NCBI RefSeq assembly: GCF_040412425.1
Contig: NC_089784.1
Location: forward strand, 40,106,570-40,170,569
DNA: 64,000 bases
Direction: 5' to 3'
From: Macrobrachium rosenbergii
Taxonomy: Eukaryota > Arthropoda > Malacostraca > Decapoda > Palaemonidae
Both the position numbers and the translations under genes were made by a program. Positions 32,016-59,262 of this stretch are shown here, piece by piece. Within the stretch, counting starts at the first letter, position 1. Every line of letters begins with the position of its first letter. Below the pieces are notes generated by a model that saw nothing but the letters and a program-made list of their open reading frames with translations, was not told where the DNA came from and did not search any database.

Positions 32016-59262
<27,247 letters not shown>

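Follow-up and report, generated by a model that had tools for sequence, protein, structure and literature searches.

A DIRS1-like retrotransposon ends within a few nucleotides of a coding exon's splice acceptor in Macrobrachium rosenbergii

In a gene of the prawn Macrobrachium rosenbergii, a DIRS retrotransposon ends directly in front of a coding exon. This raises the question of whether an exon can still be spliced when the terminal repeat of a mobile element supplies almost the entire sequence preceding its acceptor. The locus was analysed within a 64-kb stretch of DNA, referred to as the window, and its features are compiled in Table 1. The sequence of 42025-42040 and the adjoining DIRS element are as described in the original prediction, and the element stops 4 nt before the exon start at 42025.

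Table 1. Coordinates of host-gene and element features in the window
Feature	Position	Strand	Basis or remark
Coding exon 1	59041..59262	-	window splice = P0001
Coding exon 2	58761..58832	-	window splice = P0001
Coding exon 3	50511..51537 (51540 if upstream NAG of CAGCAG acceptor used)	-	window splice = P0001
Coding exon 4	41912..42025	-	114 nt, phase 1-1, P0001 residues 441-479
Coding exon 5, with predicted transmembrane segment	38199..38488	-	window splice = P0001
Coding exon 6, with stop	32016..32798	-	window splice = P0001
Acceptor AG of intron 3	42026..42027	-	splice of window compared with P0001
Candidate branch-point A (CTTAC), pre-insertion intron	49130	-	motif match only; -20 in empty site
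DIRS1-like retrotransposon, ATT to ATT	42030..49117	-, same sense as gene	ITR/ICR structure, RVT_1 Pfam in two pieces
TCATTT, 3' (acceptor-side) junction, holding presumed ATT core	42029..42034	-	common to 5' junction and ICR
TCATTT, 5' junction	49114..49119	-	junction comparison
Right terminus: ITR and right extension (about 42030-42055)	42030..42223	-	repeat structure, alignment
Left ITR	48944..49117	-	repeat structure, alignment
Internal complementary region (ICR)	42267..42354	-	42267-42320 pairs right end; 42315-42354 pairs left end
MITE-like insert, 322 bp, in RT region	45119..45440	.	TA both sides

Splicing the six minus-strand exons from the window results in a 2,508-nt frame, the translation of which is identical to P0001, an NCBI entry of 835 aa named 'uncharacterized protein [Macrobrachium rosenbergii]', at 835 of 835 residues and the stop. 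This match agrees with the exon 4 start at 42025 that had been proposed from the letters; the annotated NCBI model places its exon 3-exon 4 junction precisely there. A full-length transcriptome of M. rosenbergii is reported in PMC11373640. The exon also has the intact phase and donor claimed for it, being entered and left in phase 1 and ending in the donor G/GTAAGTTG (the slash marks the exon boundary).

A protein search with the translated exons 3-6 as query (E 0.001), which scored the 7,992 candidates with the largest number of shared words, revealed six matching proteins with P0001 as the closest. The remaining five are P0002 of Macrobrachium nipponense (89% identity), P0003 of Palaemon carinicauda (68%), P0004 (43%), P0005 of Halocaridina rubra (52% over 47% of the query, a short record ending near exon 4) and P0006 of Panulirus ornatus (30%). 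Of the host gene, 50461-51549 and 32016-32801 were scanned with Pfam, and no match reached 0.01. Since the fold predicted from six sequences is poor (mean pLDDT 45.3) and none of its 36 PDB matches up to E 10 reaches E 0.001, no function is named for the protein. With its predicted transmembrane helix, it would be a membrane protein. Two other acceptors of this gene display peculiarities. At the NAGNAG acceptor of exon 3 (CAGCAG, 51537-51540) the M. rosenbergii model takes the second AG, and the first appears to be used for the protein of M. nipponense. The pyrimidine tract of the exon 2 acceptor is a CT microsatellite (58833-58900), possibly variable in length.

The repeat structure of the element is not a chance pattern. 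Inverted terminal repeats (ITRs) are present, with arms of 97 and 61 nt at 94 and 93%, respectively, and are confirmed by alignment. An internal complementary region (ICR) is complementary to both ends, to the right one over 54 nt with two mismatches (96%) and to the left one over 40 nt with none (100%), and the two arms overlap at TCATTT. Read in gene sense, the 5' junction is gtaaa-TCATTT-ttatatatg and the 3' junction aaaaatg-TCATTT-cag; the ICR contains aaaaatg-TCATTT-ttatatatg, with one TCATTT only, at 42315. Because the ICR carries the joined ends with this single TCATTT, the border of the element is fixed without a guess about the host, and the TCATTT common to both junctions and the ICR places it within 42029-42034, as originally predicted. 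A crossover at any of these six nucleotides yields the identical empty site. As these six nucleotides, found at each border, recur in the ICR, a target-site duplication does not appear to be needed to explain them. With the ATT core taken as the border, the element is 7,088 bp long and four host intron bases, TCAG, lie between it and exon 4. ATT is located at both ends inside the shared TCATTT, in agreement with the NTT termini of DIRS1-like elements.

This organisation corresponds to the DIRS1 plan. According to PMC3266345, the ICR preserves the two ends as they were joined in a circular intermediate; a 3-bp junction that has its match in the target serves for integration, and the target is not duplicated. 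In Table 3 of the same source, the most frequent combination of termini is ATT with ATT (10 of 28 elements, own count), found, among others, in DpuDIRS3 of the crustacean Daphnia pulex; 23 of the 28 tabulated elements start and finish with NTT. A blastn search at 1e-3 within the window detected no further ITR copies. Upstream of the same gene a second, diverged DIRS-like piece was observed (59976-60482), which is 65% identical over 508 columns; it was rejected as a guide to the family borders for want of matching ends.

Within the element, a reverse transcriptase (RT) is present, with an RVT_1 match above the Pfam cut-off in 45486-45938 (E 6.4e-9) and a second piece below the cut-off in 44743-45132 (E 8.9e-6). 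Phage_int_SAM matches in 43413-43880 were all below the cut-off, with none in 43057-43440, and Pfam gave no match of any kind in 44120-44623, the piece scanned for RNase H. RVSEL and HEVR boxes, located by pattern in different frames, mark a candidate tyrosine recombinase; candidate RNase H and methyltransferase motifs were located by pattern only. The MITE-like repeat in the RT region has CAGGCAGTCCCC ends, and its end motifs recur at 5736, 5947 and 6461. A break in the coding sequence, judged by eye, marks a possible second insert in the RT region at 45724-46190. In intron 4, an ORF fragment (40660-41211) is putatively hAT/ZBED5-like, as judged by eye; here Pfam returned only a peptidase match below the cut-off.

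In the conserved part of the ITRs (from CTTACCCAG on), 10 of 157 letter pairs are mismatched, eight of them by transitions, and one gap occurs; the ICR differs at 2 of 54 positions from the right end and at 0 of 40 from the left. Since PMC3266345 describes the conserved ITR part of DIRS elements as strictly complementary, the ITR divergence should postdate the insertion. In combination with the broken frames and the nested MITE-like insert, it indicates an insertion that is old rather than recent.

What the insertion changed at the intron end can be read from the empty site, which was reconstructed by joining the element's flanks. It reads ...ttgcttacatatgtaaaTCATTTCAG/GAACGG, in short form ...GTAAATCATTTCAG/GAACGG and thus exactly the join that had been predicted, compared to ...tatattattataaaaatgTCATTTCAG/GAACGG at present. 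All of the last nine intron bases, TCATTTCAG, are identical in both states, since the match covers the recombination core ATT and also its neighbours, two bases to one side and one to the other. The match beyond ATT may reflect chance or a target preference. The earlier view that only a TTTCAG-like end of the acceptor is host sequence thus falls short, as nine bases are the same before and after. The length of intron 3 rose from a predicted 1,400 nt to 8,485 nt.

Acceptor strength was estimated from the number of pyrimidines at -20 to -4, in place of a trained prawn acceptor model. Exon 4 has 9 of 17 in the empty site and 9 of 17 now, the fewest in the gene (exon 2, 16; exon 3, 13 or 11 for its two alternative AGs; exon 5, 10; exon 6, 14), which, as far as this measure goes, shows no weakening of the tract by the insertion. 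The last 60 nt contain one yUnAy motif in either state, CTTAC (A at -20) before the insertion and TTTAT (A at -26) now, and the nearest upstream AG begins at -51 and -43, respectively. Of the claim that branch point and pyrimidine context now come from the element, the first half stands, the branch region being new; the tract was already poor. Within the element ends, a donor-like GGTAAGT and an acceptor-like CTTACCCAG were noticed (GT at 42337 and 42071 on the minus strand, AG at 42275). Read in the sense direction, the ICR resembles a short intron; 46 nt upstream of exon 4 there is a GT that looks like a donor.

Comparison with P0002 shows that exon 4 is 81.6% identical between the two Macrobrachium species, similar to exon 5 (83.5%) and exon 6 (83.6%); exons 1 and 3 reach 87.8% and 95.1%, and exon 2 72.2% in an alignment running past the exon. 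The residues at the boundary match as well, GTEAQTT in M. rosenbergii and GTETQTT in M. nipponense, both proteins being annotated ones. Beyond Macrobrachium, exon 4 conservation appears weak or absent, with no tblastn match at 1e-2 to P0003, P0004, P0005 or P0006. Such weak conservation would suit a wrongly predicted exon 4, or one that starts elsewhere, in which case the closeness of the element would be meaningless. Given the frame, the donor, the protein identity to P0001 and the boundary residues shared with M. nipponense, which is itself an annotation, this explanation is highly improbable. The open frame of exon 4 says little, since 10.6% of its shuffles are also stop-free, and against toleration it can be held that a predictor could pick this AG for frame alone in the NCBI model.

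The original prediction had left two outcomes side by side, toleration or an impaired allele. The evidence leans towards toleration, since the NCBI model joins exons 3 and 4 here, the element appears old and exon 4 is conserved like exons 5 and 6; this favours toleration and does not prove it. It is likely that an old insertion by tyrosine-recombinase-type crossover rebuilt the acceptor and that splicing of exon 4 continues to use 42025, if perhaps at reduced efficiency.

RNA folding bears on the opposite outcome. The right end can pair with the ICR located 184 nt upstream in the pre-mRNA in a 54-nt stem with two mismatches (-62.6 kcal/mol; z-score -11 against 100 shuffles), which would bury the branch point and the pyrimidines. 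Exon 4 would then be largely skipped and, with 114 nt and phase 1-1, its loss would shorten the protein by 38 aa in frame. In 480-nt folds, the mean unpaired value of -57 to -4 is 0.05 now; the empty site has 0.42, and the four other acceptors that were folded lie between 0.30 and 0.76. Among the 230 TTNCAG sites in the window, the exon 4 acceptor has the second lowest value; the lowest is found at 29025 on the minus strand, where GGTTACACTAGCAATAGGTGCA and its complement make up a hairpin of about 22 bp upstream (29026-29145). The ICR stem covers -57 to -4 in six of ten runs, at 28 and 37 C, all six of which include the ICR arm. The other four runs were shorter, contained none or the edge of this arm and gave 0.42 to 0.48, and the acceptor AG itself ranged from 0.15 to 0.96 unpaired over the ten runs. 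However, in a two-end fold that includes the left ITR and has a 200-nt A linker in place of the element interior, the ITR duplex (-271.5 kcal/mol) prevails over the local stem. The unpaired value of -57 to -4 is then 0.36, close to the mean of 0.43 of ordinary sites. Moreover, the annotated protein includes exon 4, as do both Macrobrachium clusters among the six protein clusters found within the 7,992 scored candidates. A shorter form could hide among the three members of the P0001 cluster; altogether, an impaired acceptor is considered rather unlikely.

The ITR duplex could open another route to a functional acceptor. As a panhandle it would remove the element from the path, so that the host branch A at 49130 might serve the acceptor over about 45 nt (15 nt to the stem foot at 49115 and 30 nt from 42056). 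This possibility draws on the duplex energy, the two-end fold and the CTTAC at 49130. However, the ends are 6.7 kb apart and compete with a nearer pairing, the old branch site is a motif match, and the parts of the literature examined describe nothing on such a scale, which makes the route quite improbable. The folding analysis as a whole gives no verdict and predicts two conformations that work against each other: in the first the branch region is hidden, in the second the old branch motif is brought near; neither the ICR hairpin nor the ITR panhandle had been mentioned in the original prediction. A speculative and quite improbable extension is that the DIRS ends form a two-state switch in the pre-mRNA, in which ICR pairing hides the branch region and the panhandle returns the acceptor to the host branch point. 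If this were true, the architecture of DIRS elements would give the same switch to every sense copy that ends at an acceptor.

Under the favoured reading of a tolerated insertion, the decayed DIRS1-like element would have integrated by a tyrosine-recombinase-type crossover at ATT in the intron 3 acceptor. With a core common to circle and target and matching flanks, the new 3' junction would have rebuilt TCATTTCAG exactly. Exon 4 retains its phase, its donor and its acceptor AG. The right terminal repeat now supplies all sequence upstream of -9, including the branch point, and splicing would proceed at 42025, possibly with lower efficiency. Partial skipping might be mild, affecting a symmetric exon and a stretch without confident modelled structure before the transmembrane helix. 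It would keep the frame and remove 38 aa between a strand-rich ectodomain and the predicted helix (546-576). The pLDDT blocks of 23-26 at residues 441-480 would suit a flexible linker, but may also reflect the thin alignment of six sequences.

A survey of the open-licence literature, judged by title and opening lines of the abstract, found no paper describing a DIRS element at a splice acceptor. Published repeat fractions lead to guessed copy numbers between 2,000 (all 'LTR: Others' counted as DIRS) and 15,000 (from the DIRS fraction of 2.87% given for Exopalaemon in PMC5532655). With these guesses, a rough reckoning gives a random expectation of 0.4 to 3 cases per genome of a border placed beside an acceptor like this. 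Such a location is therefore rare for one gene and unremarkable genome-wide; what is new here is one more copy of an element type already known, at an informative site. The locus is a clean natural case of how an insertion of the recombinase type, for which a short target core is required and left intact, can come to lie in an acceptor and leave its last bases unaltered. It also allows a test of whether a branch-point region can be replaced, hidden or bypassed by the terminal repeats of a single element.

Among known systems, DIRS1-like elements, as described in PMC3266345 and in the decapod survey PMC2685390, share the ITRs, the ICR overlap at the circular junction, the right extension, the ATT termini and the RT piece with the prawn element. 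In contrast to the 28 elements covered by the former source, which span 3,974-6,283 bp, it measures 7,088 bp, carries a nested insert of 322 bp and broken frames, and adjoins the acceptor of a coding exon. Inverted Alu repeats in introns (review PMC11263572) are likewise mobile-element repeats capable of pairing within an RNA; here, however, a single element holds every complementary arm, and the acceptor region itself serves as one of them. Native yeast introns also possess stems just before the 3' splice site, whereas in the prawn gene the stems are the repeats of a mobile element, extending over 54 nt locally or over about 170 nt across 6.7 kb.
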